Source: Fimbriimonadaceae bacterium (GTDB lineage: Bacteria; Armatimonadota; Fimbriimonadia; Fimbriimonadales; Fimbriimonadaceae). From it: 64,000 nucleotides of DNA. Positions 5,431 to 37,276 of the stretch are shown in pieces. Below the pieces are notes generated by a model. That model made no database searches. It was not told where the DNA came from and saw nothing but the letters and a program-made list of their open reading frames with translations. Each line of letters begins with the position of its first letter. Within the stretch, counting starts at the first letter, position 1. The translations under genes and the position numbers were made by a program. The DNA is taken from NCBI GenBank assembly GCA_023957775.1, contig JAMLGR010000005.1, positions 62,001-126,000 of the forward strand, written 5' to 3'.

Positions 5431-5435
5431 CGTGC

Positions 5436-5544: not shown

Positions 5545-5548
5545 ACAT

Positions 5549-6373: not shown

Positions 6374-6376
6374 GGC

Positions 6377-6872: not shown

Positions 6873-6886
6873 ACTATATTCTACAC

Positions 6887-7014
6887 AACCGCAAACCGCC
6901 CACCGCCCACCGCAAACCGCAAACCGCAAACCGCAAACCGCCCACCCCAAACCGCCCACCCCAAACCGCCAACCCCAAACCGCAAACCGCCCACCCCAAT
7001 CCGCCCACCGCACC
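6887..7014. repeat. Heptamer tandem array, CCGCAAA/CCGCCCA type (inverted relative to 6377-6495)
   Basis: 7-bp units such as ACCGCAA and ACCGCCC, the reverse complement of the GGTTTGC family. It begins about 15 nt upstream of the four-helix-bundle start and ends 3 nt from the stop codon of the MalF-like permease. Confidence 0.95.
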
Positions 7015-7016
7015 CC

Positions 7017-7907
7017 TCACGTCGCGCTATACCCCCTCATCGACCCGCGCATCATGCGGAACTGGATCACCGAGATGGCGATCACGACGGCCAGCAGCAC
7101 GAACGACTTCGCGGAGGCCAGGCCGACGTTGAAGTTCACCCACGCCTCGGTGTAGATGTGGTAGCCGACGACGTCGGTCGTGTCCTCGGGCTGCCCCTTC
7201 GTCATCATGTACACCGGCGTGAAGATCTGCAGCGCGCCGATCGTGGACGTGACCAGTACGAACAGGGTGGTGGGGACGAGCATCGGGAGGGTCACCGACC
7301 AGAGCGTGCGGAGTTTGGAGGCGCCGTCGAGCTCGGCGGCCTCGTAGAGGGTTTGCGGGATGCTGAGCAGCCCCGCCAGGAACAGCACCATGCGGGGGCC
7401 GAGGCCGGTCCAGACCGACATGAACACGAGCGCCCACATCGCCCACTCCGCGCGGTTGAGGAAGTCGATGCTCTTCACTCCGAAAGCCGCGAGGATCGTG
7501 TTGATCATGCCGGTCTCCGGAAGATACACATAGATCCAGAGCATCGCGATCGCGACTCCGGAGGCGATGGAAGGGATGTAGAAGAGCGTGCGGAACACCG
7601 TGACCCCACGCAGCTTCTGGTTCACGAGGATCGCGACCGCAAGCGCGACGATCATGCCGAGAGGAACCGCGGCGAGGGTGAACCGCGCCGAGTTCCACAT
7701 CGCGTTCCAGAACGGCGACTCCGCGAACGCCATGGCGTAGTTCTGCAGCCCCACGAACAGCTGGTTTTCGCGCAGCAGCTGCCACTTGAAGAGGCTGATG
7801 TAGAGCGCGTAGAGCATCGGGAACAGCGCGAACACCAGGAGGTGCACGAACGCCGGCGCCACGAACACCCACCCGAGCCGAGCCTCGCGCCGACGGCTAA
7901 CGCTCAC
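7017..7907 (-). CDS. Carbohydrate ABC transporter permease, MalF/UgpA type
   Basis: 296 residues, six TM helices, permease loop YEAAELDGASKLRTLWSVTL near residues 193-212. Start assigned to GTG 7907 because an AGAGGAG Shine-Dalgarno sequence lies 6 nt upstream and the protein then begins with the usual short basic segment before TM1 (ARLGWVFVAPAFVHLLVFAL). Upstream in-frame codons add a non-conserved arginine-rich extension. It pairs with the MalG-like subunit (5549-6373) to form the membrane channel of a CUT1 sugar importer. Confidence 0.93.
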   Translation of the reverse strand: MSVSRRREARLGWVFVAPAFVHLLVFALFPMLYALYISLFKWQLLRENQLFVGLQNYAMAFAESPFWNAMWNSARFTLAAVPLGMIVALAVAILVNQKLRGVTVFRTLFYIPSIASGVAIAMLWIYVYLPETGMINTILAAFGVKSIDFLNRAEWAMWALVFMSVWTGLGPRMVLFLAGLLSIPQTLYEAAELDGASKLRTLWSVTLPMLVPTTLFVLVTSTIGALQIFTPVYMMTKGQPEDTTDVVGYHIYTEAWVNFNVGLASAKSFVLLAVVIAISVIQFRMMRGSMRGYSAT

Positions 7908-16431: not shown

Positions 16432-16539
16432 ACGGCCCCAATGGGACGGGGAAACTCCGACTTGACAAAGCCACCCCGTTCGGCCGAAACTGCAAGCAGA
16501 CCGACCTGGTGAAGTTGCCAGGTGGCAAAGGAGCGAGCC

Positions 16540-19500: not shown

Positions 19501-21264
19501 AACGGCCCGGACGCCCAGCCGACGCGCCGCCACAAGACCAACGGCCAGAAGGCGGCGTTCGCACCGGACGACACCGGCAAGGAGTCCACCGCGTTCCCGC
19601 TCGAGGAGCTGTTCTTCGAGGGCAAGTGGATCGGAGAGACCGGACAGAAGGACTTCGCAAAGTTCCAGTGCATCCTGCACACCGCGAAGGTGAAGGTCCA
19701 GGCGATGCAGTACATGGCGGGGGCGGACAACGGCCCCGTCGAAGTGGCGATCCCCACGGTGTACAAGCAGGCGGGTTTCGGCGGGGCCAACGCCGCCAAG
19801 GCGTTCTTCGAAGTGCCGTCCGCAAAGGAGATCACCGCCGGCAGCGACACGACGAAGACGGGCGGACTGGTCAACCTCGACCAGAAGATCAGCGCGTTCA
19901 CCAAGGGCAAGGGGCCGGTCGGCGGGGCGTTGCAGCAGGTGCTCGGGGGCAACACGCGCCCCGAGGACTTCATGCCCGACACGCTCAAGATTCTGGGCGC
20001 GGTGAGTCTGTGGAAGCTTCTTCCCGACACGATTCCGATCACCCCGGGCGACCCCAACGACCCCAACACCCTGAAGAGCCCCCGGCTCGAAGTGAAGTTC
20101 GACAAGGACGGCAACGGCGTGCCGATCCGGGCGAAGGTCGAGTTCCGCTGGTATCCGGTGGTCAACAGTTGGCCGGCGGACAAGCCGCTGCTGATCATCC
20201 CGCCGTGGAGCGCTTCGAACCCGGCGCTGAGTCTCGTGGGAGACGTAAGCGTCGAACTCAAGAGCGGGAACAGCAACTACTCGTTCGTCGGCAGCTTCAA
20301 GAAGTTCCGCGTGGACTGCATCGCCCCGGTGATGTCGTTCATCTACCTCGACTTCGACGAGCTGAAGTTCGAGGCGAAAGCGGGCAGCAGCCCCGCGATC
20401 ACCCTCAAGCCGGACTTCCCGAAGACCACCTTCACGGGGCCGCTCACGTTCGTGCAGAAGCTGCAGGACTTGATCAGCGACGTGATCGGCATTGAGCCCG
20501 ACCCCTACCTGCTCGCGAGCATGGACCCGATGCCGCGGCGGCTCGACGGCTTCGAGTTCAAGCCGTTCTTCGACCTCCAGGCGGGGGTCATCCGCGTCGG
20601 GTTCAAGTTGGGTGTGCCGACCATCGGCGTCGGCGTGCTCACGATCATGAACATCTCGCTGCTGGCCGAGGTGCGGTTGCCGCTCATCGGCTCGGCCCTG
20701 CGCGTCCGGTTCGCGTTCTGCGAGCGGGAGAGCCCGTTCCGCCTGACGGTCATGGGCATCGGCGGCGGCGGGTTCATGGGCATCGAGCTTGGGCCGGAGG
20801 ACGTGGAGCTGCTCGAAGCGTCCTTCGAGTTCGGCGCGGCGATCGCCCTCGACATCGGCGTGGCCAGCGGCAGCATCTCGCTGATGGCCGGCATCTACTA
20901 CAAGCTCGAGCAGAAGAAGTCCACGCTCACCGGCTACGTGCGGCTCGTGGGCAAACTCAGCGTGCTGGGGTTGGTGCGGATCAGCATCGAGTTCTATCTC
21001 GAGCTCACGTACGAGTTCGACACGGATCGGTGCTTCGGCACGGCGACGGTCACCGTGGAGATCGAGGTGCTGTTCTTCAGCTTCGACGTCTCGATGACCG
21101 TGCAGAAGCAGTTCGCGGGCGGCAAGTCCGGAAGCGCGCCGGAACCGCTCTACGCATCGATGGATCCCGAGGCCTTGCCGCAGGCCAGCGCATCGCAAAT
21201 GACTTTCACTCAGGCCGTCAGCAAGTCTGAGTGGGAAACGATCTACACCGGAGCATTCGCATGA
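16540..21264 (+). CDS. Giant Tat-exported protein of unknown function, 1574 aa
   Basis: ATG 16540 follows AAAGGAG with 6-nt spacing. A long n-region leads to a twin-arginine motif (FDRRAFLAG, arginines near 30-31) and a hydrophobic core (AGAAGAAMGASAVAQAA), so Tat export is likely. Residues 60-400 look beta-rich; a Pro-rich linker with repeated PTRQVP follows near 405-430. A central domain carries VERLMLTPLGGYL, WAHKATLGRDHYVKVVKRGY and YPTGHPAALVFVSERKVQ. The last 330 residues are strikingly hydrophobic and beta-prone (GIGGGGFMGIELGPEDVE, LMAGIYYKLEQKKSTLTGYV, VEIEVLFFSFDVSMTVQKQF). I recall uncharacterised large proteins with similar segments in other bacteria but can name no family. It overlaps the next giant gene by 4 nt (ATGA). 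Confidence 0.85.
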   Translation: MAKRGTPLRIESAFVKGFHPSGLLEARFDRRAFLAGAAGAAMGASAVAQAAKGGGKISVARTLAPDDTLRKAVVRCGDLRWTIDTALFEGKPRLTVDEKDGRTRVTLTGAKLPGTAFQLAFEAEIRPSLSGPVLSVGFQDTGVAGATWAAEAPFAAWLRGEAPLEASLTRREIQLLTGGSAKPLAPQAIIVVAGGGTLRFEPQNGFVVDAPTRVLADGRTLPLAALALSPMPKGAPTMVSRADAPFTVLSGPGGADCLVPVSLGDQAVWSIDGTIGDLQDLRLELHGKRAGLLVSGNGGCTLTASGLALGLVRTRFAKLLGAEADHHVLAADLAKEGAWLDLGGCGLELGPGADGLLAQIGPDGQPQLEFDGSMRRFAAGFDDAIVGVRGGELVPLEFEVGAQQRQTPPPTRQVPPTRQVPTRTQTPSRVQMRPGLLQALLRLPFRIDVVRREDMLALSFEFINLSLQVGSGAPRLVRANASKPAYLVVHFPSQSLAERTFEENDQGGPVLGDIRPVPSRLSGPTRLVFFVPTTVPYIVFNLSGEDGKGKNGLLDWSKLRPNIIPTAVSPLGSNPRLRIDPGFINPLERVKIGGLSATPPPGNLRAVPPPDETSGIVASIGGLLARRGQDRRLATPPPQDRRLILPNQRTIQKIEDQLGQIAPNLDPTLILKLIPVSRMPIDGSPYYTAIEMPARLYLSPNELSGWAHRADVFAPGGRAELWHTRLGVQQANGVKEGPTTVRAVDAVDYDADMGEIIMPGEMNQAMLREDRVGLVDNMTHRELAKDSRPFPVERLMLTPLGGYLKGEGTWDEVWQREQRKYVDSFIMAWAHKATLGRDHYVKVVKRGYLYPTGHPAALVFVSERKVQQTPQGPVIAFTRKKVYAIVRVPKLSYNANQQRELGFRTLECLTLETPPLTISAGAIPGTTAFWMRTSGGPFLFHMRGEDVEGRPVEWTMPMIFVRSVDPNLPNAAQTYQNNYNAAHLHYVNGPDAQPTRRHKTNGQKAAFAPDDTGKESTAFPLEELFFEGKWIGETGQKDFAKFQCILHTAKVKVQAMQYMAGADNGPVEVAIPTVYKQAGFGGANAAKAFFEVPSAKEITAGSDTTKTGGLVNLDQKISAFTKGKGPVGGALQQVLGGNTRPEDFMPDTLKILGAVSLWKLLPDTIPITPGDPNDPNTLKSPRLEVKFDKDGNGVPIRAKVEFRWYPVVNSWPADKPLLIIPPWSASNPALSLVGDVSVELKSGNSNYSFVGSFKKFRVDCIAPVMSFIYLDFDELKFEAKAGSSPAITLKPDFPKTTFTGPLTFVQKLQDLISDVIGIEPDPYLLASMDPMPRRLDGFEFKPFFDLQAGVIRVGFKLGVPTIGVGVLTIMNISLLAEVRLPLIGSALRVRFAFCERESPFRLTVMGIGGGGFMGIELGPEDVELLEASFEFGAAIALDIGVASGSISLMAGIYYKLEQKKSTLTGYVRLVGKLSVLGLVRISIEFYLELTYEFDTDRCFGTATVTVEIEVLFFSFDVSMTVQKQFAGGKSGSAPEPLYASMDPEALPQASASQMTFTQAVSKSEWETIYTGAFA

Positions 21265-24200
21265 GGCTCGAAGCCATCTGGACCGCCCTTCCCGTCGCCG
21301 TCAGCGGCAACACGCTGAAGCTGTCGGTCTTCGTCTCGCACCGTTTGTACGGTCCTCCCGCAACGACTCTGGGCGCGGGCGGGTTCACCGACGTCCTCGG
21401 ATGGGCGGGCAAGAACGTCAAGTTCAACGTCCGCTTCGGCGGAGGCCCTCCCGTGCCCGCGACCGTGGTTTCGGCGATCAACGCGCAACTGCACGCCGCC
21501 GCGTTTCCGGGCACGACACCCGTGCGCGGGAATGCGCCCACCGATCCGCCCCAGCGCTTCCAGCGGATGGCTCAGCGCGAGATGCAGTCGTACTCGGCCG
21601 CGGCCCTGGGCATCTTGCTGCGCGGCACGTACCAGGGGGCCGCGACCCTCAGCCCCACCGATCGCATCGATGCCGACCAGATCGTCAACACGACGCTCGC
21701 GTGGGCCGATCCGCTGCGCCCAAGGCGGCCCTACACCGAGGCGCAGCTCCTGCCCACGCAGTACGTGAACCTCGGCTCGGCGAGGATCAAGAAGGGCGAC
21801 CGGCGCTCGTTCGCCGCCGTGTGGGCCGAGGCCGAGAAGCGCGAGGCCGACTCCATGCGCAAGGAGATGGACTCCGCGCTGAAGGCGTATCGCAACTCGG
21901 GCGGCGCCGCGCCTCCCAACACCCCGGCGGGTTGGCGTTTGCTGGCCTACGAGTGCAAGCGGTTCTTCGAGTCGATGGCCCCGACCAAGAACCACCCGAA
22001 GTACGGCGTGGTCCACGCGGCGGTCAACGTGCCCGAACCCAGTTTCGACTACCACGACGCGCAGTCGCTCGTGGCCAACCACCCGTCGCTCATGCGCGCG
22101 CTGGGATTCGTGTTCGATCTCGAGGTGCCGCTGCCCGCGGGGTTGCCCGCCAGTGGCGAAGTGCGCGTGGAGCCCGTCTACACCAAGGCCCCGGACACGG
22201 TGGACCGCACGCCGAAGACGGCCTACCAGTTCGTGCCGGGCCAACTGTTCCTGCCCAAGCCCAAGGCCGGCTCCGAGCTGGGCGTCGGGTATCTGAAGAT
22301 CGGCGGGGCGCCTTACTTCACCGCGCAGTACGACATCGATTCCGGCGCGCTGAAGCTGATGGACTTCGTGCAGAACATGCGCAACGCGCTGCAGGTGCGA
22401 AAGCAGGTGGAGCCCACGAATCCGCCCCGCAAGCAGCAGCTCCTGCCCGGAACCGAGACGCTCGATCTCGACAACTCGGAGATCGGGCGCAGCAAGGTCA
22501 CGCTTCCCGCCCTCCGCACGACCGGCATCTCGCTGTACCGGAACGAGCGGGCGCAGAAGATCAAAGCCGTGTTCCAAAAGGCGATGGCGATGCAGGCCGA
22601 CCTGGCGCCCGCGACCAAGGCGTTCGATTACGACGACGTCGTCCGTGGATACCGGGTGGACGTGTTCGACCGAGGGGCTTGGCGGCCCCTGATGGGGAGG
22701 GTTGGCGGCTACAACCTCAAGGGCATCCAAGTGCCCGCGGCCGGGCAGAACGGCGCGCCGTTCGACGAGGCGTGGATGTCCTCGGCGATGACCTCTTCGC
22801 CGAGCAAGCCGGGCGATCCTCCCGCGACGGGGCCGGTGAAGGTCCACGAAGCGGTTTGGAGCTGGCACGGTTGGAGCTTGGCGGTCGAACGCCCCGGCCA
22901 GGCGATGGACGATCTCGGAAAGCCCACCCAGGGCTCGAACAAGCTCGATCCCAACTTCCCGGTCGCGATGAACTTCCAGGTGCCCCCGGGGTCGTTGCCG
23001 ACCTTGCGGTTCGGGCACACGTACAAGATGCGCGCGCGCGCCGTCGATCTGGCGGGCAACAGCCTGCCACCCAACGCGCCGACGCTGGGCGGACCCGGGT
23101 TCGAAACGCCCGAGGCTCCCTACCTCCGGTTCGATCCGGTGCTTTCCCCGCAACTGGTCAACTACAAGGTCCCGGGGAACGCCGATCCGGTCAAGGACAC
23201 CACGGCGGGCGCGGCGGAGAACCAGATCGTCATCCGCAAGTTCAAGGGCGATCCCACGATTCGGCCCAGCCGCCGCGAGGTGTTCCCGCCTTACGGCTCG
23301 GTCTCGCTTTCGGAAACGCACGGCATGTTCGACCTGCCCAACGGCAAGATGGACCCCGCCGCCTATCCCAACGTCATCGTGCCGCGCGAAGGCAAATCCG
23401 CGCCGCCCGAGGTGACGGGCTCGATGAGCGACGTGCCGTATCTGCCGGACCCGCTCTCGTTCGGCTACTGCGTCCAGTTCACGCCGCTGCCGTTCCCCAA
23501 CGCGCCGACGGGCGTGAAGTTCGCACTCGGGAAGTTCCCCAGCGCGGGTTGGCCGAAGATCGGGACGGGCACGCTGCAGATCGTCTCGAACCCGGGTCCC
23601 GCCTCGCCCGCCCCGGTGGTCTCTGGAGGGAACGTCACGCTTGGGTTGCGGCCCGGCGAAGTGGTCAAGGCGCTCGTCAGTTCCTCGCTGGGGAACCAGA
23701 GCGCGCTGAATCTGATGGGGCTTTGGAACTGGCTGCCGCCGGCCACCCAGGCCTCCCACCAGGACGCCGCCCTGCAGGGCCGCATGTGGCTGATGACGCC
23801 CTACCGGGAGGTGACGCTGGTTCACGCGGTCCAGATCCCGGAGGCGCCCGCCCAGATCCTGTTCTTCAAGGCTTACCGTTCGCCGGGCGACACGTCCGTG
23901 CGCATCGGCGACAACGAGCAGACCGCGATGGTGACCCACGCGTGGAGCACGGTCGAGGTCGAGGCGATGGCCCAGTGGGAGGACGAGCTCGACCTCATCG
24001 AGGAGCCCATCCGCACGACGCTGAAGCGCAAGGTGGACATGACGGCGTTCAAAGTGGGCATCAACCGCGATGAATTCCTGCACCGGTTCGTGGAGCGGCA
24101 CGAGATCGGCGACACGAAGTACCACAACGTCACCTACACGTTGCGCGCGGCCAGCCGCTTCCGCGACTACTTTCCCTCGCAGATCACGGAGTTCACGCTG

Positions 24201-25400
24201 GACACGGTGGGCGACATTCCCAAGACGGTGCTGGGGCGCAACCTGCCGGCGCCGGTGAAGGGGACGCTGAACTTCGACGCGGTCAGCACGGCGCGGCCGG
24301 ACGTGCCTTTGATCGAGTACATCGTGCCGACGTTCGGCTGGTCGCGGCCTTCGGTGCCGACGGGCCAGCGCTCGATTCGCGACGGCGGGGGGCTGCGCAT
24401 CTACCTGCGCCGGCCGTGGTTCTCGTCGGGCAACGGCGAGCGGCTGGCGATCGTGCTGCCGTCCGGGGCGTACGAGGGTGCGAAGGCGCCCGCGGGCATG
24501 CCGAACGCGGCGGAGTACCCCTACGTGACGCTGTTCGGCGCCGATCCGACGAACAAGAGCGGCAACGTGCACGCGCGGCCGCTGTCGAACCACTTCCCGG
24601 GGGCGGCGCCCGCCGGGAAGTACCTGAAGCTCGAGGAGAACCCCGCGTTGAACGTGGGAGCGGTCTCGGTGCCGGTGCAGTTCGACGCGGAGCGCCAGCT
24701 TTGGTTTGCGGACGTGCAGATCGACGCGGGGAACGCGGCGTACATGCCGTTCGTGCGGCTCGCGCTCGCGCGCTACCAGGAGTTCTCGGTGCCGGGTCTG
24801 GAGTTGAGCCGCGTGGCGGTCGCCGACTTCATGCAGCTCGCGCCGGATCGGTCCGCGACCGTGACGTACCTGTCCGACACGCGGTTCAAGGTCGTGGTGA
24901 GCGGCGTCGGCACGGCGGACGGGAGCCCTCCCGGCCGGGTCATCGTGGGGACGGTGGAAGTGTCCCCGGGAACGTACGACGGCAAGGCCGTGACGGACGA
25001 GGAGACGGGCTGGCGTCCGGTGGTGGTGGGCGGGAAGGACCTGGAGAAGACGATTCCGCTGACCCCGGCGCTCAACCGCGTGATCATCGGCCGTCCGCCT
25101 CCCGAGGAGGAAGGGGTCGAGGAGCAGCCGCTCGAGGCCGGGCAGGGTCGTGTGGCGGTTCCGCCTCCCAATCAAGGACGGGTGATCAACCCCCAGATCC
25201 GGCCGACGGTGCAGGAGGGTCCCGGCGAGTTCACGTTGCCCGGTCAGAGAGGTGCGGCGAAGTACCGACTGGTGCTGCGCGAGTACGAGGTGTATCTCAG
25301 CGACTTCCCGGAGCCGGTCATCGAGATGCCCCCGACGACCGCCGCCCCGCCCCCCACGCGCGGCCGCTTGGTGTACATGGACGTGATCCCCTTGGCCTAG
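21261..25400 (+). CDS. Giant protein of unknown function, 1379 aa, partner of the preceding gene
   Basis: ATG 21261 overlaps the preceding stop (ATGA), indicating translational coupling. There is no signal peptide or TM helix. Segments that look conserved include FDYHDAQSLVANHPSLMRAL with GFVFDLEVPLP (residues 255-290), GHTYKMRARAVDLAGNSLPP (about 590), a run SETHGMFDLPNGKMDP, and a C-terminal YRLVLREYEVYLSDFPE. It appears to be a multidomain, mostly beta, structural-type protein with fibronectin/immunoglobulin-like pieces, but no catalytic motif is evident. The first partner has a Tat signal and this one does not, so this subunit may stay cytoplasmic, use another route or be carried with its partner. 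Function unknown. The gene ends 28 nt before tRNA-Leu. Confidence 0.85.
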   Translation: MRLEAIWTALPVAVSGNTLKLSVFVSHRLYGPPATTLGAGGFTDVLGWAGKNVKFNVRFGGGPPVPATVVSAINAQLHAAAFPGTTPVRGNAPTDPPQRFQRMAQREMQSYSAAALGILLRGTYQGAATLSPTDRIDADQIVNTTLAWADPLRPRRPYTEAQLLPTQYVNLGSARIKKGDRRSFAAVWAEAEKREADSMRKEMDSALKAYRNSGGAAPPNTPAGWRLLAYECKRFFESMAPTKNHPKYGVVHAAVNVPEPSFDYHDAQSLVANHPSLMRALGFVFDLEVPLPAGLPASGEVRVEPVYTKAPDTVDRTPKTAYQFVPGQLFLPKPKAGSELGVGYLKIGGAPYFTAQYDIDSGALKLMDFVQNMRNALQVRKQVEPTNPPRKQQLLPGTETLDLDNSEIGRSKVTLPALRTTGISLYRNERAQKIKAVFQKAMAMQADLAPATKAFDYDDVVRGYRVDVFDRGAWRPLMGRVGGYNLKGIQVPAAGQNGAPFDEAWMSSAMTSSPSKPGDPPATGPVKVHEAVWSWHGWSLAVERPGQAMDDLGKPTQGSNKLDPNFPVAMNFQVPPGSLPTLRFGHTYKMRARAVDLAGNSLPPNAPTLGGPGFETPEAPYLRFDPVLSPQLVNYKVPGNADPVKDTTAGAAENQIVIRKFKGDPTIRPSRREVFPPYGSVSLSETHGMFDLPNGKMDPAAYPNVIVPREGKSAPPEVTGSMSDVPYLPDPLSFGYCVQFTPLPFPNAPTGVKFALGKFPSAGWPKIGTGTLQIVSNPGPASPAPVVSGGNVTLGLRPGEVVKALVSSSLGNQSALNLMGLWNWLPPATQASHQDAALQGRMWLMTPYREVTLVHAVQIPEAPAQILFFKAYRSPGDTSVRIGDNEQTAMVTHAWSTVEVEAMAQWEDELDLIEEPIRTTLKRKVDMTAFKVGINRDEFLHRFVERHEIGDTKYHNVTYTLRAASRFRDYFPSQITEFTLDTVGDIPKTVLGRNLPAPVKGTLNFDAVSTARPDVPLIEYIVPTFGWSRPSVPTGQRSIRDGGGLRIYLRRPWFSSGNGERLAIVLPSGAYEGAKAPAGMPNAAEYPYVTLFGADPTNKSGNVHARPLSNHFPGAAPAGKYLKLEENPALNVGAVSVPVQFDAERQLWFADVQIDAGNAAYMPFVRLALARYQEFSVPGLELSRVAVADFMQLAPDRSATVTYLSDTRFKVVVSGVGTADGSPPGRVIVGTVEVSPGTYDGKAVTDEETGWRPVVVGGKDLEKTIPLTPALNRVIIGRPPPEEEGVEEQPLEAGQGRVAVPPPNQGRVINPQIRPTVQEGPGEFTLPGQRGAAKYRLVLREYEVYLSDFPEPVIEMPPTTAAPPPTRGRLVYMDVIPLA

Positions 25401-25428: not shown

Positions 25429-25514
25429 GCGCGGGTGGTGAAATTGGTAGACACGCTACCTTGAGGTGGTAGTGCCCACAAAGCGTGAAGGTTCGAGTCC
25501 TTTCCCGCGCACCA
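25429..25514 (+). tRNA. tRNA-Leu(GAG)
   Basis: 86 nt with acceptor stem GCGCGGG/CCCGCGC, class II variable arm, T-loop GTTCGAGTC and an encoded CCA end. The anticodon loop CTTGAGG gives GAG, reading CUC/CUU leucine codons. Its 3' end (25502-25514) is duplicated at 32049-32061, so it is the attachment site of the island that follows. Confidence 0.97.
25502..25514 (+). other. attL-like site (tRNA 3' end, TTCCCGCGCACCA)
   Basis: Thirteen bases of the tRNA-Leu 3' end that recur exactly and in the same orientation at 32049-32061, bounding 6.5 kb of more AT-rich DNA. Confidence 0.75.
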
Positions 25515-25683
25515 TTTTTTTCGCTAGGTTCAATGGAACCTGCAATTGTGGGGGATGTGGTCCACTCTTCTGGGCTACAACGCGTAGACATCTTAACCCG
25601 GGGAGCGCTCCTCCACCGGAGCTGCTGTTCTGCTTCCAGAACGGTCGTCTTGTCCTTGACCGTCCATTGGCTAGGGTAGAGCG
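25515..25683. other. Left end of island, no gene
   Basis: Contains a T-run right after the tRNA, a small hairpin AGGTTCAATGGAACCT, and a candidate promoter (TTGTCC, 16 nt, TAGGGT at 25672-25677, then 6 nt) for the next gene. Confidence 0.4.
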
Positions 25684-25953
25684 ATGAGCGAGTTGCAGTG
25701 GACCTTTCTCTTCCTAGGGCTGTTGGCCATTCTCGCTCAACGATCAGGGGCTGAGGGGGCCGGTTGGCGAGCTTGGCTCGGACTGCCATCGTTCCTTTCC
25801 GCCGCCGGGCTCGTCACGCTGCTACTCGACGTGACCGGCTGGTCTCCGAATTCTCTTTGGATCGCCGGGCCCCCAATTGCGCTGGCAGCTCTTGCCGACG
25901 CGGGTGCACGTCACGGCAAGTACGGGCATCGAGAGTCGCCCGGTCAGCCCTAG
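25684..25953 (+). CDS. Small membrane protein, 89 aa (island)
   Basis: ATG 25684 with TAGGGT exactly 6 nt upstream, the leaderless spacing seen elsewhere in the window. Up to three hydrophobic segments are visible: LQWTFLFLGLLAILA near the N-terminus, SFLSAAGLVTLLLDV in the middle and SLWIAGPPIALAALA after a short loop, followed by a charged tail. No family recognised. It is the first gene of the island and convergent with the minus-strand membrane genes. Confidence 0.55.
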   Translation: MSELQWTFLFLGLLAILAQRSGAEGAGWRAWLGLPSFLSAAGLVTLLLDVTGWSPNSLWIAGPPIALAALADAGARHGKYGHRESPGQP

Positions 25954-25993
25954 CCGGCAGGAGTCGATTGGGCTGAACCTGCTTGCTAGCCCT

Positions 25994-26527
25994 TCAGCCG
26001 GATCCAGAGCGCTTCTTGGCGACCCGGAATGCCAAAGGCATATAGGTCCAAGAGATCAGTAGCGCAACCAACAGAGAGACCGGGAAGCCCAGCAAGCAAG
26101 AGATCACCCATCTTGGTGCTAGGAGGATTGTCGCGCCAGTGGCAAGGTAGAGCACGGCCCAGATAACGCGGAGAAGGCCCCAGAACCATCTGAAGTACCT
26201 CGTGAAGAACGCTCCCGAAGGATCTTCCTCCCCAGCCGATCGCATTGAAAACGTCAGCTTGGCTGCTTTGAGAGATCTCAGGAACATGTATGCGGAGAGA
26301 GCGGATAATGAGAGCCGTAGGACAGCCCAAACCCAGTATGAAGTGCCACGAACCTCAGCACCAAGTGCCCCGATGAAGAGAAAGTCGTGAGGCGATTGCA
26401 TGGTGATGAGGAGAGCCCCGACTATCACAAGAAGACCCACGTTAGCGGTGCACCCTAGGATGACCTTCAGTATCCACCGTAACTTCGGACTCCTCGGGGC
26501 CGAGCCGACATTACGATGGATCCTCAA
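25994..26527 (-). CDS. Membrane protein, 177 aa (island)
   Basis: Predicted multi-pass protein: hydrophobic segments at LGCTANVGLLVIVGALLIT, YWVWAVLRLSLSALSAYMFL, LLRVIWAVLYLATGATILLA and LGFPVSLLVALLISWTYM, with a basic cytoplasmic tail (AFRVAKKRSGSG). Start proposed as TTG 26527, which overlaps the stop of the upstream gene as TTGA, the same arrangement as the RND adaptor/pump pair; the frame extends further 5' without a better signal. No homologue recognised. Confidence 0.6.
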   Translation of the reverse strand: MRIHRNVGSAPRSPKLRWILKVILGCTANVGLLVIVGALLITMQSPHDFLFIGALGAEVRGTSYWVWAVLRLSLSALSAYMFLRSLKAAKLTFSMRSAGEEDPSGAFFTRYFRWFWGLLRVIWAVLYLATGATILLAPRWVISCLLGFPVSLLVALLISWTYMPLAFRVAKKRSGSG

Positions 26528-26967
26528 CAGAATCGCCCTGCCTTGGAGCCCCCCAGCGCAAACCAGATCAACCAGGTGTGTAGGATCGCAAGGGGCACCG
26601 CCAAGAAACTCCCAAAGAGATACGCCCAAATCAAACCAGTGTAGAGAGTGCTCAGAACATCATAGTAGTAATCTGGGTACCAACGGTGAACAAGAGAGTC
26701 GAAGAGTGCGTAGCCCAGTGTGCCAACCATCGGAAGCACAAAGGCAAAAAAGAGACTTGGGACCTTCGCTCTCCACCATGCAATCAAGACGTATACAGAG
26801 CCGACGAAGGCTGAGCCAACCAAATAGCTTGCAAGTGTCTCAAGGGTGCCATGAAGACCTATCCAATACGGAGGCGTTATCAGCATCCACAATGGCGACA
26901 TGACAACGCTCACGCCCAATACCGCAACCACTCTCAATATTGGTATCGCTGGACGAGATGGAGCCAT
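26524..26967 (-). CDS. Membrane protein, 147 aa (island)
   Basis: Begins MAPSRPAIPILRVVAVLG and has about four TM segments (VVAVLGVSVVMSPLWMLI, LASYLVGSAFVGSVYVLIAW, LFFAFVLPMVGTLGYALF, LIWAYLFGSFLAVPLAIL). A Tyr/Asp-rich loop (HRWYPDYYYDVLSTLYTG) lies between TM3 and TM4. Its 3' end overlaps the next minus-strand gene by 4 nt. Function unknown; co-directional with the anchored protein upstream. Confidence 0.65.
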   Translation of the reverse strand: MAPSRPAIPILRVVAVLGVSVVMSPLWMLITPPYWIGLHGTLETLASYLVGSAFVGSVYVLIAWWRAKVPSLFFAFVLPMVGTLGYALFDSLVHRWYPDYYYDVLSTLYTGLIWAYLFGSFLAVPLAILHTWLIWFALGGSKAGRFC

Positions 26968-26982
26968 GACATGTACCGGTGC

Positions 26983-27840
26983 TCACCTTTGGGACTTCTG
27001 GGCAAACGCAGCTGCAATTGCTTCTAAGCCCCTTCCAAACGGAATCGTCATGTCGTCTCCTCCCCTTGACTTCATGACCAGATTCCTCGAGCCATCGATC
27101 GCCACTTCAAGATCGCCGTAGGCATTCTCCATCCTAATCACGCCTGACAAGTTCGCGTAGGCCAACTTCCATGCGGAACCCATGGAGGCAAACACCAGGA
27201 CAAAATCACTTTCTCGTTCACTAGACCGCAACACGCGCACAACGCCTAGCTGAGTGCCTTTCCATCGGGTAAGCGCTGGAAGGCTACTTCCAAGAGACCT
27301 GGTCCAGGCCTGCAAGTGAGAAAGGGAATCGAAAGACGACGGCAGGACGACACTACTGGATGGGCCTTCCATTCTGCTTGGAAGCGAAGGGTAGCAGTAG
27401 GTTCCGGTGGTTAAGGCCCCTGGGACTCCTCCCATTTGGTCCAATCGCTCAAAGCGGAGGTCTCCATAACTGATGACATCACCATTCTCGTGAATGAAGA
27501 GGCTTGAGGAGCTGTCATCGGAGAGTCGTGGGAAGACCCTTATCTTTGTGAACGCGCCGGACTTGAACTTACACTCAATGTCATCGGAGCCCATGAACCC
27601 GCGGTAGAGGAAGTCGCTACTCTTACCTACGGCCACGCCGTCAATAGTGAACTCTGCTGAATCCGGCTTTGCGTAGATGCCATAGGTGTGCATTGTTAGG
27701 GCCAACCCAAAGTAAGGCGTCGGAATTAAGATGGCGAAGGCAAGTAGGGTGACAACAGCTTTGACCCAGAAGCGTTTCCAGAGTGCAGAGGTAACTGTGA
27801 GAATCGCTGCCCTTCTGGGAAATCTACGAGCGCGAGCCAT
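26983..27840 (-). CDS. Membrane-anchored hypothetical protein, 285 aa (island)
   Basis: ATG 27840 follows AAGGAG with about 10-nt spacing. A basic N-terminus (MARARRFPRRAA) precedes one TM helix (VKAVVTLLAFAILIPTPYFGLAL, residues about 26-48). A beta-rich extracytoplasmic domain of about 235 residues follows, with EFTIDGVAVGKSSDFLYRGF and YGDLEVAIDGSRNLVMKS. No catalytic motif. It is first of three co-directional genes with 15-nt and -4-nt junctions, so probably a small operon of envelope proteins within the island. Confidence 0.65.
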   Translation of the reverse strand: MARARRFPRRAAILTVTSALWKRFWVKAVVTLLAFAILIPTPYFGLALTMHTYGIYAKPDSAEFTIDGVAVGKSSDFLYRGFMGSDDIECKFKSGAFTKIRVFPRLSDDSSSSLFIHENGDVISYGDLRFERLDQMGGVPGALTTGTYCYPSLPSRMEGPSSSVVLPSSFDSLSHLQAWTRSLGSSLPALTRWKGTQLGVVRVLRSSERESDFVLVFASMGSAWKLAYANLSGVIRMENAYGDLEVAIDGSRNLVMKSRGGDDMTIPFGRGLEAIAAAFAQKSQR

Positions 27841-28115
27841 TAAGTCATCACTCCTTCGGTGAAGTCGCGAGCGGCAGTGTCAAGGGCATTGGCGTTGCCG
27901 CAATCCTTGGGGAGACAGCTTGAACTCGCGCCACACATGCCTTGCGAAGAATTCCATCGTTGTTCCGGGTAGACCCTCCAGCCGGTTCAAGGCGAAACGA
28001 TCGGCGAAGGCCCTCCGACGCATTGTACGACGTAACTCCGCTGAATGAGTGGTGCGTCCCTATGGCCGTATGCTGGAGATATGGGGCCGTTTGAATTCCA
28101 GGACCGAGGACGCTT
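27841..28115. other. Divergent intergenic region in island
   Basis: 275 nt between the minus-strand membrane operon and the 1236-aa gene. No gene or clear hairpin seen; it should hold both promoters. Confidence 0.4.
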
Positions 28116-31100
28116 TTGGAGGAGTCCTTACGTGTCGTCCGCGGGACACCGTATCCTAACGTTGTGGAAGGTGCGCATCAAATCTCAGCAGATCGGCTCA
28201 AAACTTGGGCCAACGAGCAAGCAGCTGCCGGAGAGTTGCCTTGGCTCCTCAGAAGCCTCATCCGTTTGACGGTCGGACCACAAGCGAAAATCGAGTTCAA
28301 CACGGGAACTGGGGTGTATTCAGACGGCTTTGACGGGGTTGTTCAAGCCTCTGGCAGCAGCTATGTGCCGGATGGCGACTCAGTGTGGGAAGTCTCCGTT
28401 CGAAAGGACGTTCAAGCCAAAGCTAACGATGATTTCAAGCGGCGAAGTTTCGAAGAATCCCGTCTTGACCGCTCGTTGGTCACTTACGTTGGCGTTAGCC
28501 TCCGAAGGTTCAGTGAGAGCTCGGACACGGCCAAGGCATCCTGGGCAGAGGACAGACGTTCGGAGGGGATCTGGCGTGATGTTGTCTTTTATGACCTTGA
28601 GGATATCTCGGAGTGGCTTGACCAACATGCTGTCCTTGGATTTCAGGTGGCCATCAAGCTCAAACAGTCTTCATTGATTCGCTCTTTGGGAGACTGGTGG
28701 GAGAACTGGGTTGCGCCCTGTCAGTTGAGGATCGGCAATGACTGGTTGGTGTCTGGTCGTGATCAGGAAGCCAAGCAGTTCGGGGAACTGATTCAGCTCG
28801 AGCGCAAATTCCTGACCATAAGCGGTTGTAGCCAGACAGATGCGCTGGCATTCGCCTACAGCGCCGTTCAGTCTCTGCCGCCGGAGGTCGCTGATTGGCT
28901 CATGTGCCGTTCTCTCTATATCCCATCTCTGGCAGCGTTCGAGCAGGTCACGCCCTTTGTCCGAAATGCGATTCTCATCCCGATGGAGGGATTAGATGAT
29001 CATCACATTGGCCTAGTCAGTCCATCGAACAAGGTTCTCTATTGTGGACATCCCACGAAGTACGAGGGAGGGATACACCTCCCTAGGGTAAGAGTGAGCA
29101 TTCTCCATGAACGTATGTGCCGGGATGGCTTGGACTCTGACGTAGCGTCGCGTGCGGCAAGAGCTGCTCGCTCCGGTGTCGAACTGATGAGGAAGGAGCT
29201 GGGAGCTCCCCCCTCCCCTTTCGACCTGTCCGACCTTGACAAGTCGGATCACGCAATCATCTCGGCAGCCCTGTTAGTCAATAGATGGAGCGAAGAGAAC
29301 GTCCACGACGTCTCGCTTGTCGCCGAACTCGCTGGTACGGGACCGGACGAAGTTGAACGAACGCTTGCGAGAGTTTCTAGGCGGCAGCCGCCTCTGATTC
29401 GCAAATCTGGTCATGTGTGGTTCCTCACCGATGACGGGCTCGCATGGGATCAGTTGGGCCATCTAGTCACTAGCTCTGTGCTCAGCCCGTTCTTGCTTCG
29501 GGCACCCGGGATTCTCGGCGAAAGTGATCCGTCCTTCGACCTCGATCCTTCTGAGCGGTGGAAGGCGAGGCTTCTTGGAAAGAGTCCGGTCTACAGTTCA
29601 CATGTAAAGGTTGGCCTTGCGCGGACATTCGCAGTTCTGTCCGAACACGATTCTCCCGTCGGGTCTTACGCCTCAGGTCATGAGATATCTGATCGCCTCG
29701 TTGATCAATGTGTGAGTGGGGCGGGCGAAAAAGAGTGGTTCGCCTTGGCTCCGTCATTGTCACTTTTGGCGGAAGCCTCGCCGGATCACTTTCTCGCTGC
29801 GCTCGAGGGGGATCTCAACCGGAGTGATCCTGCGGTGCTCGGCCTGTTCGCAACGGAAACGCAGCCGCTCATGGGTGGAAGCCGCCATTCCGAGTTATTG
29901 TGGTCCCTAGAACGGTTGTGTTGGAGCAAGCGGTTTCTCAAGCGGGCTAGTAAGTGTCTGTGCGCATTACACGAGAGAGGATTCGGCAATGGAACTGGAA
30001 ACAACCCCTTAGCCAGCCTTCGCCAAGTGTATGTGCCGTGGCACCCCTGTACCGAAGCCGACGCAGAAGAACGCATGGCCGTTCTTGACTCGCTGAGACA
30101 ATCACATCCGGTTGCATCGTGGGATCTGCTCGGTCAGCTCATGCCACGAGACCACGATGTAGCCCACCCCACGAGTCGCCCGGAGTTTCGCGAATGGGGT
30201 GGTGAACGATCTGAGCAGTTTCAGACTCAAGTAAAGCGCTGTTACGATACGGTGCTTGGCTGGATGGTCGGAGACGCGGGTGTGAATGCAGGGCGGCTGG
30301 CAAGCCTAGCAAGCGCATTCGCGGGCTACCCCGACGAGTGGCTGAACTTGATTCTCGAACGCCTGGGAGATGTGGTCGAAGACATTCGAGAAGAGCAGGA
30401 GCGGTTCGTAATTTGGGATGGGATGAGCCGTGTGCTACGAAGGCACCGGAGCCATCCTGAAGCCGAATGGGCTATGACCGCCGAGCAATGCGATAGATAT
30501 GAGGATGTGATGACTAGCTTCGAACCGCTAGATGTCGCATTGCGGAGCCTTTGGCTCTTTCAACCGTGGGTCGACCTAGGCGTGAAGGAGGACGACTACG
30601 ACCAGCGTCATGCGTTGATTGACGAGGCGCGAAATGAGGCTCTCAAGGCAATTCTGAGGGAATCAGGAACTTTAGGCATCTTTGATCTAGCCCAGCGAGC
30701 AGAGCTCCCGGGTGTAGTGGGGGAGATCGCTGCAAAGTTGGGTATTTGGACCGGAGAGGATGAAACGCAGTTCCTGCTGAGCCACCTAGGAAGCGAGGAA
30801 CGCTGGGGCCGGCAGCTAGCCATGGGCTACGCTGCACAACACTTCGCCGACGACGGTCCAGCCTGGATACTGGATCTGCTTGGCGGACCTGAGCCTTGGA
30901 GCGCAGAGCAGAGGGCAGAACTCCTCTTTGTCCTACCCAACGATCGGAATACGTGGAAACACCTAGACACCGAGCCAGAACAGGTTTCGAAGTTGTACTG
31001 GAGTCGAATCAACGTGTGGACGACTCGTGCCTACTCCGAGGACGATTACATGCTGTTCGCTCGGCGGATGATTGATGCCGGGCGCGAAGCTGATCTCTTG

Positions 31101-31826
31101 CACCTCTTGTCCTCGCTTTCATATTCTGGCAGTTCCGCTGAGCGCGAACTCCTTATGGTCGACGCTTTGAATGCGTTGTCGACGCGAGAGTCCTTTGAGC
31201 CTGGCGAACTCTCAACGTTAGGGAGCGAAGTTCGGCAAGCCCTCGAAGTGCTTTCTGGGTCCGGCCGAATCCAGGACACTGAACTTGCCCGACTGGAGTT
31301 CTACTTCATGCCCCTGGTTTGGTTTGAGTACCGTCCGAGAGGCCTTGGGAGGGCACTGGCGAGCGATCCGAAGTTCTTCGTAGAGCTCTTGAGCAAGATC
31401 TACCCAACTGATGGTGAATCTGATGGAAACGAAACGGAAGCTCGTCGGTCATTGGCAGAGACAGCCTACAAAGTCCTTCACGCCTGGGACGTCTTGCCTG
31501 GTAGCGATGAGGGGCGGATCAACCTCCGCATGCTGCTTGATTGGCTGTCGGCCGCCCGGTCGATTGCGGCTGAGAAGGGACTCCTGCCGAGAGCAGATGC
31601 ATTTATCGGTGATCTGCTCGCAAAATCTCAACCTGACGAGGACGGTATCTGGCCACCCAGCGAAGTATGCCAAGCAATCGAGATCACCGCTTCCGACGAT
31701 CTGGATCTGCATGTCAGAATCGGCCGTCACAATGCCCGAGGTGTTACATCTCGAGGAGTCGACGATGGCGGGAGGTTAGAGCGGACAGAAGAAGCTCGAT
31801 ACCGATCACTGCTTGGCGAGGTCTGA
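28116..31826 (+). CDS. 1236-aa putative defence protein: nuclease-like N-terminus, degenerate P-loop, long helical C-terminus
   Basis: Start at TTG 28116: GAGGA lies 5 nt upstream and an in-frame stop at 28092 excludes anything longer. Residues about 55-105 read GFDGVVQASGSSYVPDGDS, then VWEVSVRKDVQAKANDDFKR. This D...WE-x-S...K-A-x-x-D pattern resembles PD-(D/E)xK-type domains I associate with phage-defence proteins. At about residues 228-250, FLTISGCSQTDALAFAYSAV sits where an STAND NTPase would have a Walker A; here the GK-S/T is missing (GCSQTDAL), so it is degenerate. Residues 400-1236 are mostly helical, Trp-rich and probably repeat-like (sensor region). No TM. It is alone on its strand in the tRNA-Leu island. 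A defence role is inference only. Confidence 0.75.
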   Translation: MEESLRVVRGTPYPNVVEGAHQISADRLKTWANEQAAAGELPWLLRSLIRLTVGPQAKIEFNTGTGVYSDGFDGVVQASGSSYVPDGDSVWEVSVRKDVQAKANDDFKRRSFEESRLDRSLVTYVGVSLRRFSESSDTAKASWAEDRRSEGIWRDVVFYDLEDISEWLDQHAVLGFQVAIKLKQSSLIRSLGDWWENWVAPCQLRIGNDWLVSGRDQEAKQFGELIQLERKFLTISGCSQTDALAFAYSAVQSLPPEVADWLMCRSLYIPSLAAFEQVTPFVRNAILIPMEGLDDHHIGLVSPSNKVLYCGHPTKYEGGIHLPRVRVSILHERMCRDGLDSDVASRAARAARSGVELMRKELGAPPSPFDLSDLDKSDHAIISAALLVNRWSEENVHDVSLVAELAGTGPDEVERTLARVSRRQPPLIRKSGHVWFLTDDGLAWDQLGHLVTSSVLSPFLLRAPGILGESDPSFDLDPSERWKARLLGKSPVYSSHVKVGLARTFAVLSEHDSPVGSYASGHEISDRLVDQCVSGAGEKEWFALAPSLSLLAEASPDHFLAALEGDLNRSDPAVLGLFATETQPLMGGSRHSELLWSLERLCWSKRFLKRASKCLCALHERGFGNGTGNNPLASLRQVYVPWHPCTEADAEERMAVLDSLRQSHPVASWDLLGQLMPRDHDVAHPTSRPEFREWGGERSEQFQTQVKRCYDTVLGWMVGDAGVNAGRLASLASAFAGYPDEWLNLILERLGDVVEDIREEQERFVIWDGMSRVLRRHRSHPEAEWAMTAEQCDRYEDVMTSFEPLDVALRSLWLFQPWVDLGVKEDDYDQRHALIDEARNEALKAILRESGTLGIFDLAQRAELPGVVGEIAAKLGIWTGEDETQFLLSHLGSEERWGRQLAMGYAAQHFADDGPAWILDLLGGPEPWSAEQRAELLFVLPNDRNTWKHLDTEPEQVSKLYWSRINVWTTRAYSEDDYMLFARRMIDAGREADLLHLLSSLSYSGSSAERELLMVDALNALSTRESFEPGELSTLGSEVRQALEVLSGSGRIQDTELARLEFYFMPLVWFEYRPRGLGRALASDPKFFVELLSKIYPTDGESDGNETEARRSLAETAYKVLHAWDVLPGSDEGRINLRMLLDWLSAARSIAAEKGLLPRADAFIGDLLAKSQPDEDGIWPPSEVCQAIEITASDDLDLHVRIGRHNARGVTSRGVDDGGRLERTEEARYRSLLGEV

Positions 31827-32048
31827 TTTCACCAGAACGGCACGCATGTTAGTGGCACTAGCTGAGGAGTTCAGCTCGGAAGCCAGCGCCACCGATCAGA
31901 GCGCTGACATGGAGCAAGATCTGTGATCCAAGACCATCTGGACCAGCCGCGCCACTTTGTGGGCCAAATCACCCCACTGAACCCAAGGCCCCCCGGTCCA
32001 GGACCGAGTCTCTACCTGTATGGAGACTCAAACAGGTAGAAGCCTTGA
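31827..32048. other. Right end of island, no gene
   Basis: 222 nt downstream of the 1236-aa gene. No coding signal. The last 55 nt are rich in inverted repeats (see 32006-32039). Confidence 0.4.
32006..32039. repeat. Two overlapping, mutually exclusive inverted repeats next to attR
   Basis: GAGTCTC (32006-32012) pairs with GAGACTC (32023-32029), and CTACCTGT (32012-32019) pairs with ACAGGTAG (32032-32039). The two hairpins cannot form together. GGTCCAGGACC (31995-32005) lies immediately to the left. Confidence 0.7.
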
Positions 32049-32061
32049 TTCCCGCGCACCA
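32049..32061 (+). other. attR-like site (TTCCCGCGCACCA)
   Basis: Exact 13-bp direct repeat of the tRNA-Leu 3' end at 25502-25514, followed at once by chromosomal-type sequence and a terminator. Confidence 0.75.
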
Positions 32062-32072
32062 AGTTTCAAAGC

Positions 32073-32106
32073 AAAGAGGCCCCGTCGTTTTCGACGGGGC
32101 CTCTTT
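32073..32106. terminator. Bidirectional intrinsic terminator
   Basis: Perfect 15-bp stem AAAGAGGCCCCGTCG/CGACGGGGCCTCTTT with a TTTT loop, A-rich on the left and T-rich on the right. It serves the PEP-CTERM gene on the minus strand (stop at 32128) and was probably the original tRNA-Leu terminator. Confidence 0.85.
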
Positions 32107-32796: not shown

Positions 32797-32907
32797 CAAA
32801 ATGCCTTCCTTTCTAAACAGTCCACCCGTACTCTAGCATCGGCGTGCGCCGTTTGGAATGGCGCCGTGAACAATTTTCGAAGACCCGGCAAGTTTGCTGG
32901 TTTGGGG

Positions 32908-32962
32908 GCTGGCCGATCCGCGGTTCACCAGAACCGCCAACTTGCCGGCGAACGGCTCGACC
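32908..32962 (-). pseudogene. Relic fragment of an S41 peptidase gene
   Basis: 55 bp match 52 positions of the S41 peptidase gene at 36182-36236. In the minus-strand reading they encode VEPFAGKLAVLVNRGSAS against VEPFAGKVAVLVNRGSAS in the intact gene. No flanking S41 sequence remains. The piece lies in the 340-nt gap (32797-33135) between the PEP-CTERM and sigma-factor genes. That gap otherwise holds a short tail-like frame (LAGYSFFYPNLLGGHSI then stop, ending near 33100), possibly another relic. Confidence 0.75.
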
Positions 32963-33135
32963 CCCTTGCCGGGAATGGGGGACGACTGGCCGACGGATCG
33001 CTGATCCGAAGGACGTGTCCCCCTGACAGCACGGCGCCCAGGACCTGGCCGGCTACTCGTTCTTCTATCCCAACCTTCTGGGCGGACACAGCATCTAATC
33101 CAGCGTTCCATCCTTCGAGGGACACTGGATACGCG

Positions 33136-35908: not shown

Positions 35909-37144
35909 TTACCCGCCCGCCTTCAGCATCTCCAACGCCTTCTCGATGCCGGGGTCCTTCCCATCCTCGGTCTTGCCCCCCGCGGCCTCGGCGTCGGGGT
36001 CGAGAGGGTTGGCCTCGAGACGCCGGCCCTGCGCCGTCACGTAATCGCTGATCGGGTACTGGATCTCGAACCCCTGCGGCAGCTTCCCGTACACCGAAGC
36101 CAGCACCGCGCCCGCGGTGCGCGCGCCGACCAAAGGCGCGTGCAGGTTCTCGCGCAGCGCCGCGGCGCAGATCTCCGAGGCGCTGGCCGATCCGCGGTTC
36201 ACCAGAACCGCCACCTTGCCCGCGAACGGCTCAACCGCCTTCTTCGACGTCTTGTACTTGCGCGAGGACCACTCGGCGATCGCTTCGACCGTGGGGCTGG
36301 GACCGGGCTTCTCCTTCACGTACGCGTCGAACGTCGAGCGGCTGATGAACGCCCCGATCTGCGTGTCCGGCGGCATCAGGAGGCTGAGCAGGTGCTGCAG
36401 GTTGTTCACCAGCCCTCCCCCGTTCGAGCGCAGGTCCAGCACGAGGTACTTCGCCTTCGCGGCCTCCGCCATCAGCTCCTCGATCGCCTTCTGGTTGTAG
36501 CCGCGCGAGAAGCTCTGGATGCGCAGCACCGCCGACTCCTCGTCCGCCCACGTGAGCGTGTCGGGACGGAACACCGAGAACCGCTGGCGCTTCAAGGTGA
36601 TCTCGCGCACCTCGCCCGCTTCGTCCTTGATCTTCAGCGCCACGTCGGTGCCCTCGTCTCCGGTGAGCACCGCGGGGTTCTCCGGCACCTTGCCGTCCAC
36701 CTCGACGATCTTCCAACCCGGCTTCACGCCCAGCTCCTCCGCGGGGCTCTTCGGCGTCACCGCCAAGACGACCAGGCCGTCCGCCTCGGGGCGGGCGGTC
36801 AACCCCACGCCGATGACCGAGGTGCGCTGCCGCGCCTCCGCGGCGGTGGGCGTGCGCAAACGAATGTGGCTGAATCCGAACTCGCGCAGCGCCCGATTGA
36901 CCTCGCGCACGAAGTCGCCCTGCTGCTCGGCCTTGTCGATCGCCTCGCGGTGCTTGGCCAAGTGCTCGGGCCACAGCTTGAGATCGATGTTCGGCACGAA
37001 CGCGCGCTCCATCACGATCTTGTCGATGCCGTCCAGCACCTCGGTCTTCTGTTCGACCGTCAGCGTTTGGGCGGTGGCGGACAGGATCGAGGCCAACAGC
37101 AGCAGCGTGCCGGCGAGAGCGCGAAACGGGCGGAGTTTCAGCAT
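35909..37144 (-). CDS. S41 family (C-terminal processing-type) peptidase
   Basis: 411 residues with a signal peptide (LAGTLLLLASILSATA). A PDZ domain occupies residues about 110-190 (VLAVTPKSPAEELGVKPGWK). The S41 core includes YLVLDLRSNGGGLVNNL and the serine motif NRGSASASEICAAAL. The usual T-F-G-K that supplies the catalytic lysine in CtpA/Tsp reads RTAGAVLAS, so the dyad is either altered or of the tricorn-like Ser/His/Glu type. It probably acts in the periplasm on unfolded or misassembled proteins. An AAGGA site lies about 9 nt before ATG 37144. A fragment of a paralogue survives at 32908-32962. Confidence 0.9.
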   Translation of the reverse strand: MLKLRPFRALAGTLLLLASILSATAQTLTVEQKTEVLDGIDKIVMERAFVPNIDLKLWPEHLAKHREAIDKAEQQGDFVREVNRALREFGFSHIRLRTPTAAEARQRTSVIGVGLTARPEADGLVVLAVTPKSPAEELGVKPGWKIVEVDGKVPENPAVLTGDEGTDVALKIKDEAGEVREITLKRQRFSVFRPDTLTWADEESAVLRIQSFSRGYNQKAIEELMAEAAKAKYLVLDLRSNGGGLVNNLQHLLSLLMPPDTQIGAFISRSTFDAYVKEKPGPSPTVEAIAEWSSRKYKTSKKAVEPFAGKVAVLVNRGSASASEICAAALRENLHAPLVGARTAGAVLASVYGKLPQGFEIQYPISDYVTAQGRRLEANPLDPDAEAAGGKTEDGKDPGIEKALEMLKAGG

Positions 37145-37193
37145 GGCTGAGTGTCCTTACGGGATTACCGCGTTTCGGGGTTTCCGAAGTGAC

Positions 37194-37276
37194 GGGAAAC
37201 GGGAGACGGGAATCGGGAGACGGGAAACGGGAATCGGGAATCGGGAAACGGGAATCGGGAATCGGGAATCGGGGCG
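37194..37276. repeat. Heptamer tandem array, GGGAATC/GGGAGAC/GGGAAAC (about 12 units)
   Basis: Perfect 7-bp periodicity, GGGARWC consensus, filling the gap between divergent S41 and lipA genes and ending 5 nt before the lipA -10 hexamer. GGG every 7 nt makes a G-quadruplex possible on the plus strand. Confidence 0.95.

Follow-up and report, generated by a model that had tools for sequence, protein, structure and literature searches.

STAND receptors are regarded as switches driven by nucleoside triphosphates (NTPs). The Avs proteins (Avs3, 8dgc; Avs4, 8dgf) carry an effector, a STAND part and a helical-repeat sensor in this order, and a STAND-type core fold is also found in SAMD9, Apaf-1, CED-4 and the plant NLRs, which are eukaryotic, mostly NTP-binding and furnished with other effectors. 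STAND folds with eroded Walker motifs are present in defence proteins as well: the inactive STANDs of the MoxR-vWA ternary systems (iSTAND/iSTAND2) were proposed by Kaur et al. to be nucleic-acid receptors (PMC8195603), and BrxB and BrxF of BREX are inactive STANDs proposed as sensors (PMC8195603, PMC12839542). The protein analysed here, of 1236 amino acids, is encoded by the open reading frame (ORF) at 28116-31826 on the plus strand of a 64,000-nucleotide stretch of DNA (hereafter the window) from a Fimbriimonadaceae bacterium of the Armatimonadota, and had been regarded in an earlier note on this DNA as a candidate defence protein. It is predicted to consist of a nuclease fold, an inactive STAND, a winged helix-turn-helix (HTH) segment and an alpha-solenoid, and is probably best explained as a single-protein, Avs/NLR-like anti-phage effector-sensor that works without an NTP switch.

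The folds of the protein are predicted with high certainty by AlphaFold, in an N-terminal model of residues 1-600 (72 sequences; predicted local distance difference test (pLDDT) 92.5, predicted template modelling score (pTM) 0.87) and a C-terminal model of residues 380-1236 (pLDDT 91.4, pTM 0.77). Residues ~20-184 (28173-28667, on the plus strand like the other segments of the gene) are assigned to a restriction-endonuclease (PD-(D/E)xK-like) fold by AlphaFold, VIA-align 2 and residue conservation, in line with the nuclease-like N-terminal block of the earlier note; helix 37-53, strands 58-61, 74-78 and 87-94, helix 99-112 and strand 122-128 follow each other in the order of the alpha-beta-beta-beta-alpha-beta core. 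The top VIA-align 2 matches to residues 17-186 were FokI (Z 8.7; 140 residues, 4.2 A), MspJI (Z 8.7; 136 residues, 3.6 A), EcoT38I (Z 8.4; 149 residues, 4.7 A) and AspBHI (Z 7.6), families absent from the VIA-align listing not being thereby excluded. These four restriction-enzyme matches are consistent with one another and with the order of the secondary structures. Residues ~185-370 (28668-29225) are predicted to form a STAND/AAA+ fold with a GR motif (R215) and with neither a Walker A motif nor a conserved Walker B acid, and residues 185-430 matched AAA+/STAND proteins. The following segment of three helices and a beta hairpin (residues ~371-450; 29226-29465), at which the family-wide core begins, is probably a winged helix as judged from its predicted secondary structure, and the predicted model contains the alpha-beta-alpha fold and subsequent winged helix of STAND proteins. 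Residues ~451-1236 (29466-31823), described earlier as a long helical C-terminus, form a HEAT/ARM-like alpha-solenoid in the C-terminal model and represent the predicted sensor; the motif LLWSLERLCW at 594-603 corresponds to the family consensus LLWALExLAW.

Foldseek searches with the whole model returned Avs3 (E 2.1e-6), SAMD9 (E 9.4e-6), Avs4 (E 4.8e-5) and Apaf-1 (E 3.4e-4) as best matches, with probabilities of 0.99-1.00, and no significant match among viral structures. Because the TM-scores are low (0.2), the likeness between the models is one of domains and not of the whole arrangement. The window protein shares with Avs the order of effector, STAND and helical-repeat sensor, but differs in having neither Walker A nor Walker B, in the sequences of its nuclease and solenoid, and in the optional XRE domain of its family; the PADLOC Avs models did not match it.

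Residue conservation was examined in 74 aligned full-length family members, only the ungapped rows being counted where the denominator is 73. The motifs GFDGVV (71-76), VPDGDSVWEVS (84-94) and KANDDFKR (102-109), on which the earlier nuclease assignment had been based, lie where it had placed them, and each of them contains residues with family-wide conservation. D73, G74, E92 and R110, the last immediately after KANDDFKR, are conserved in 73/73 rows, K102 and D106 in 69/74 and A103 in 72 aligned sequences. D73 and E92 would thus provide the acidic pair D...(D/E) of the PD-(D/E)xK superfamily in 73/73 rows. Position 94, where the canonical (D/E)xK would have its lysine, holds S in the window protein, G in 59/74 and K in 1/74 members; in the predicted model E92 lies within strand 87-94 and K102 within the next helix, 99-112, and K102 is likely to be a displaced substitute for that lysine. 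The cleavage domains of FokI, MspJI, EcoT38I and AspBHI are therefore comparable to residues ~20-184 in fold, but differ from them in the lysine, moved here from the strand to the following helix, and no sequence similarity to them was found. Of the PD-(D/E)xK assignment, the fold and the acidic pair stand, whereas the canonical (D/E)xK does not. The near-invariance of D73, E92, K102, D106 and R110 is what would be expected if catalysis were kept, and nuclease activity of the N-terminal domain is predicted with moderate confidence.

The segment ISGCSQTDAL (235-244) occupies the Walker A position of the predicted STAND/AAA+ fold without a GK(S/T), as had been proposed. Walker A, GxxxxGK(S/T), is kept in 0/74 aligned members, most of which carry (A/G)x(S/T)xxE(A/V)xAF at this position, so its loss is a family trait and not peculiar to the window protein. 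There is no conserved Walker B acid at 288-292, after strand 3, in the 74-sequence alignment (consensus P/L, T/R/L, F/E), and the GR-motif arginine R215, ahead of the Walker A position, is retained in 73/73. Loss of NTP binding, which the earlier note considered unusual, is indeed uncommon, but inactive STANDs have precedents in defence in iSTAND/iSTAND2 and BrxB/BrxF, with which the window protein has an eroded-Walker STAND fold in common, and here the loss is family-wide. The window protein differs from the iSTAND systems in being a single-gene effector-sensor, and no MoxR, vWA or BREX genes were recognised around it in its genomic island; its body is without a Pfam match, although Pfam may not model every iSTAND.

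From these features we infer a defence role, a sensed signal, activation by oligomerisation, NTP independence and DNA as the substrate, the NTP independence with moderate confidence. The C-terminal alpha-solenoid would bind a signal of infection, probably a nucleic acid or a phage protein. By way of the winged helix and a STAND scaffold free of nucleotide, this binding would change how the chain is folded or how it oligomerises, and would so bring together the restriction-type nuclease domains at the N-terminus, as FokI-like domains need; the assembled domains would cut DNA, and the infection would be aborted or restricted.

Several observations weigh against this explanation. The highest VIA-align Z of 8.7 barely exceeds the 7-8 given for chance best matches in the tool's own note, the best matches of the solenoid are generic HEAT/ARM proteins, and the predicted models are silent on ligand and oligomer. 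The putative active site may be altered, the canonical (D/E)xK lysine being replaced by S94. No defence gene was recognised beside the 1236-residue ORF within the window, where the other island ORFs have no Pfam match, and to our knowledge no family member has been tested experimentally. The same folds also allow a reading in which the inactive STAND and the solenoid bind nucleic acid, the protein being no abortive receptor but a restriction enzyme that senses modification or structure and attacks invading DNA directly. The presence of the modification-dependent MspJI and AspBHI among the best nuclease-fold matches, the proposal of Kaur et al. that inactive STANDs are nucleic-acid receptors (PMC8195603) and the winged-helix-like segment ahead of the solenoid would all fit such an enzyme; however, no known modified-base reader domain was recognised in the window protein, and a protein-sensing receptor would be equally compatible with the long solenoid and with an Avs-like order of effector, STAND and solenoid. 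A directly acting restriction enzyme is thus considered rather unlikely.

Comparison of the relatives points to a modular N-terminus. The core common to the family extends from about residue 375 to the C-terminus, and the modules ahead of it are swapped. In the window form these are the nuclease fold and the STAND; about half of the proteins are of the window type with an added N-terminal extension, which is an XRE-type HTH where it was scanned (HTH_3 match in 9/19). The relatives L023, L131-L135 and L147 keep the C-terminal core behind an unrelated nuclease-like domain and have no STAND; the motif DDLIV...GQIKHS of this domain appears PD-(D/E)xK-like by eye. An HD-CE domain precedes the core in L028 (Pfam E 2e-9), a tag and a STAND in L027, and a tag of 30-40 residues alone in L013, L136 and L150; the STAND part is thus altogether absent from some relatives that retain the C-terminus. 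Swapping of N-terminal modules over a constant C-terminus is the pattern of effector-sensor receptors.

A GapS6a gene lies directly upstream of the tag-only forms, matching NF047935 at E 7.6e-38 and 4.6e-40 in two cases, and HetE-N (PF20701, E 1.1e-38) was detected in the GapS6a that precedes a tag-only form. The end of GapS6a, QNHSGTGDN, resembles the start, QNHTGTGHN, of the tag-only forms. The pair of GapS6a and tagged solenoid protein in L013, L136 and L150 is, as judged from these sequence matches, a variant of GAPS6, noted at L013:7597-10691, L136:7555-10688 and L150:9081-12199, the L150 pair being inside a P2-like Escherichia coli prophage. Because GapS6a precedes the short forms, the conserved C-terminal core was also considered as GapS6b itself; this was rejected, NF047936, with its 1089-position model, being a different protein. 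This model did not match the window protein or the short form of L150 and is absent from the L013 record. The core replaces GapS6b without being GapS6b, since NF047936 follows GapS6a in the genomes G324 and G341 but is missing from the L013 plasmid. The link to GAPS6 through GapS6a and the tag is confined to the short-form relatives, whereas the window protein represents the fused nuclease form, and the ORFs of the window island include none with HetE-N (PF20701), which is the GapS6a domain.

An apparent operon at L027:4009-11852 comprises an ORF that resembles AlbA_2/Schlafen by eye, a STAND-like ORF, a small ORF and the tagged inactive-STAND solenoid protein. The STAND-like ORF (5216-7426) has an intact Walker A, GRTGLGKT, and a tag, IGIQHIHN, comparable to the IGIQHVHH of the tagged member. 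This arrangement, with the STAND-like ORF two genes upstream of the tagged member, together with the paired active and eroded STANDs described previously (PMC8195603), would suit a STAND whose inactivity is only apparent and whose nucleotide is bound in trans, within a mixed ring that includes an active STAND partner. Neither the window island nor the other loci read by annotation revealed a partner of this kind, and some members have no STAND part at all; binding in trans is regarded as very improbable.

Searches of Pfam, NCBIfam, PADLOC and PDB sequences with the window protein gave no match, and at the level of sequence the family is without a name in Pfam, NCBIfam and PADLOC 2.0.0. A search of genome contigs with the single window sequence found nothing, while one conserved peptide pattern identified at least 543 loci in GTDB genomes. 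By record title, the relatives are spread over Armatimonadota, Pseudomonadota, Bacteroidota, Bacillota, Actinomycetota, Acidobacteriota, Planctomycetota and methanogenic archaea, and they occur on plasmids (18 of the 22 matching plasmids cover at least 80% of the query) as well as on prophages. Within the phylum of the window organism, two genomes of the same family encode full-length relatives with 39% and 37% identity; two further genomes have relatives of 27-30% identity over most of the protein. The full-length form of the L137 type matches 204 of 5,426 E. coli genomes, with at least 80% covered in 125, its ten best E. coli matches all being interrupted by IS3, and another type of relative is present in 8 E. 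coli genomes. A full-length, IS3-interrupted relative at L149:10001-17649 (E. coli EC6622) is carried by an island with an integrase alongside it, next to ssrA, intact forms of this relative being present elsewhere, for example in L137. The annotations seen for relatives are hypothetical protein, HTH regulator or HigA-type antitoxin, and their PADLOC matches, such as those to RmrA and capH, seem to be generic cross-matches of HTH domains. A phage-resistance protein of the Gifsy prophage was considered as a relative and rejected, because it resembles ParA and its Walker A is intact (PMC12724215). The single-chain family of restriction-type nuclease, inactive STAND and solenoid, with its N-terminal exchange, seems undescribed, though a recent paper naming it may exist.

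The neighbours of the relatives were scanned within 6 kb around 20 of them and compared with matched stretches elsewhere in the same genomes, at a PADLOC cut-off of 1e-10. The 146 neighbour proteins matched 105 PADLOC families and the 118 control proteins 7, figures that do not represent a fold enrichment, as these families are redundant models of fewer proteins. AbiE was found near 7/20 relatives and 0/20 controls (Fisher p = 0.008, the loci not being fully independent), and Avs2, a CBASS cyclase with phospholipase, type II restriction-modification (RM) and PD-T4-6 were among the other neighbours. On annotated plasmids, type I RM, AbiE, SIR2, Abi and restriction genes lie near relatives. The contexts of the relatives are rich in defence genes, in keeping with the defence role proposed in the earlier note, and on the grounds of gene context a defence function is held with fairly high confidence.

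At 17 loci in several bacterial classes (for example L016, L019, L036, L048, L051, L054, L056, L065 and L104), a divergent AbiEi gene lies ~100 bp away, with AbiEii beyond it in nearly all, and 17/17 of these relatives have the N-terminal-extension form, which may constitute a joint unit with the AbiE pair. That pairing, the XRE/HigA-like N-terminal HTH in 9/19 and the location of many relatives on plasmids could also be accounted for by toxin-antitoxin function or maintenance of plasmids and islands, with the XRE forms as autoregulated toxins that have AbiE as their partner, and the window gene as an orphan of this type. However, about half of the members, that of the window included, have neither the HTH extension nor AbiE, proteins of over 1200 residues with a sensor-like solenoid are unlike toxins, and AbiE is itself anti-phage and is accompanied by Avs2, CBASS and RM among the neighbours; maintenance of this kind therefore appears quite improbable.

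The ORF at 28116-31826 starts with TTG, preceded by GAGG 6-7 nucleotides upstream, and was found as a single copy in a genome search. As other genera and phyla have full-length relatives at 24-39% identity, comparison of sequences indicates that the ORF is real and not a product of chance. Its start codon is uncertain by ~20 residues, homology beginning at residue 15-23 and pLDDT being below 50 at residues 1-16, and a promoter scan detected no sigma-70-like site ahead of it. The gene lies in a low-GC (guanine plus cytosine) island of ~6.5 kb (25515-32048; GC 56% inside and 66% outside) between two att-like repeats on the plus strand. The first repeat (25502-25514) is the 13-nucleotide 3' end of a tRNA-Leu (gag) gene (25429-25514, plus strand), the likely integration target, and the second (32049-32061), TTCCCGCGCACCA, repeats these last 13 nucleotides, of which ~0.0005 copies would be expected by chance within the stretch. 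The GC content at third codon positions (GC3) is 59% in the ORF as compared with 91% and 93% in two neighbouring genes. Given the tRNA-Leu repeat and the low GC and GC3, the island is foreign with high certainty, in keeping with the tRNA island of the earlier note, whose interpretation of the protein is supported as largely right. A GC hairpin with a T run, terminator-like, follows the second repeat at about 32073-32106 and may be the displaced terminator of the tRNA-Leu gene.

No integrase was recognised among the ORFs of the island, which also include one on the plus strand (25684-25953) and three small ones on the minus strand (25994-26629, 26524-26967 and 26983-27840), the latter of low GC and partly membrane-like; a Pfam search of these other ORFs gave no match. 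Just upstream of the tRNA gene are two very large overlapping ORFs (16522-21264, 1580 residues; 21231-25400, 1389 residues), the second without a Pfam match. Just outside the island, a 63-nucleotide direct repeat of 92% joins 32905-32967 and 36179-36241, the former seemingly a duplicated piece of an S41-peptidase-like gene (35909-37144). The 7-nucleotide unit ACGGGAA is present in 11.7 tandem copies at 37192-37273, in the interval that separates the peptidase-like gene from a lipA-like gene.

Beyond the effector-sensor reading of the window protein, the family may represent a widespread bacterial and archaeal class of receptors with one solenoid sensor, interchangeable effectors and no NTP switch, which we consider possible rather than probable; the effectors would then, with the same reserve, be a restriction-type nuclease, another nuclease-like domain, an HD domain and a tag-coupled GapS6a. 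If such an NTP-free class is real, Avs/NLR-like activation would not need nucleotide exchange. A family whose aligned full-length members all lack the P-loop and in which the STAND is sometimes absent, yet with the order of effector, STAND and sensor, raises the question of what the NTP step is for, a question that is directly testable, as the hundreds of unnamed members include those of E. coli, in which laboratory tests are easy.

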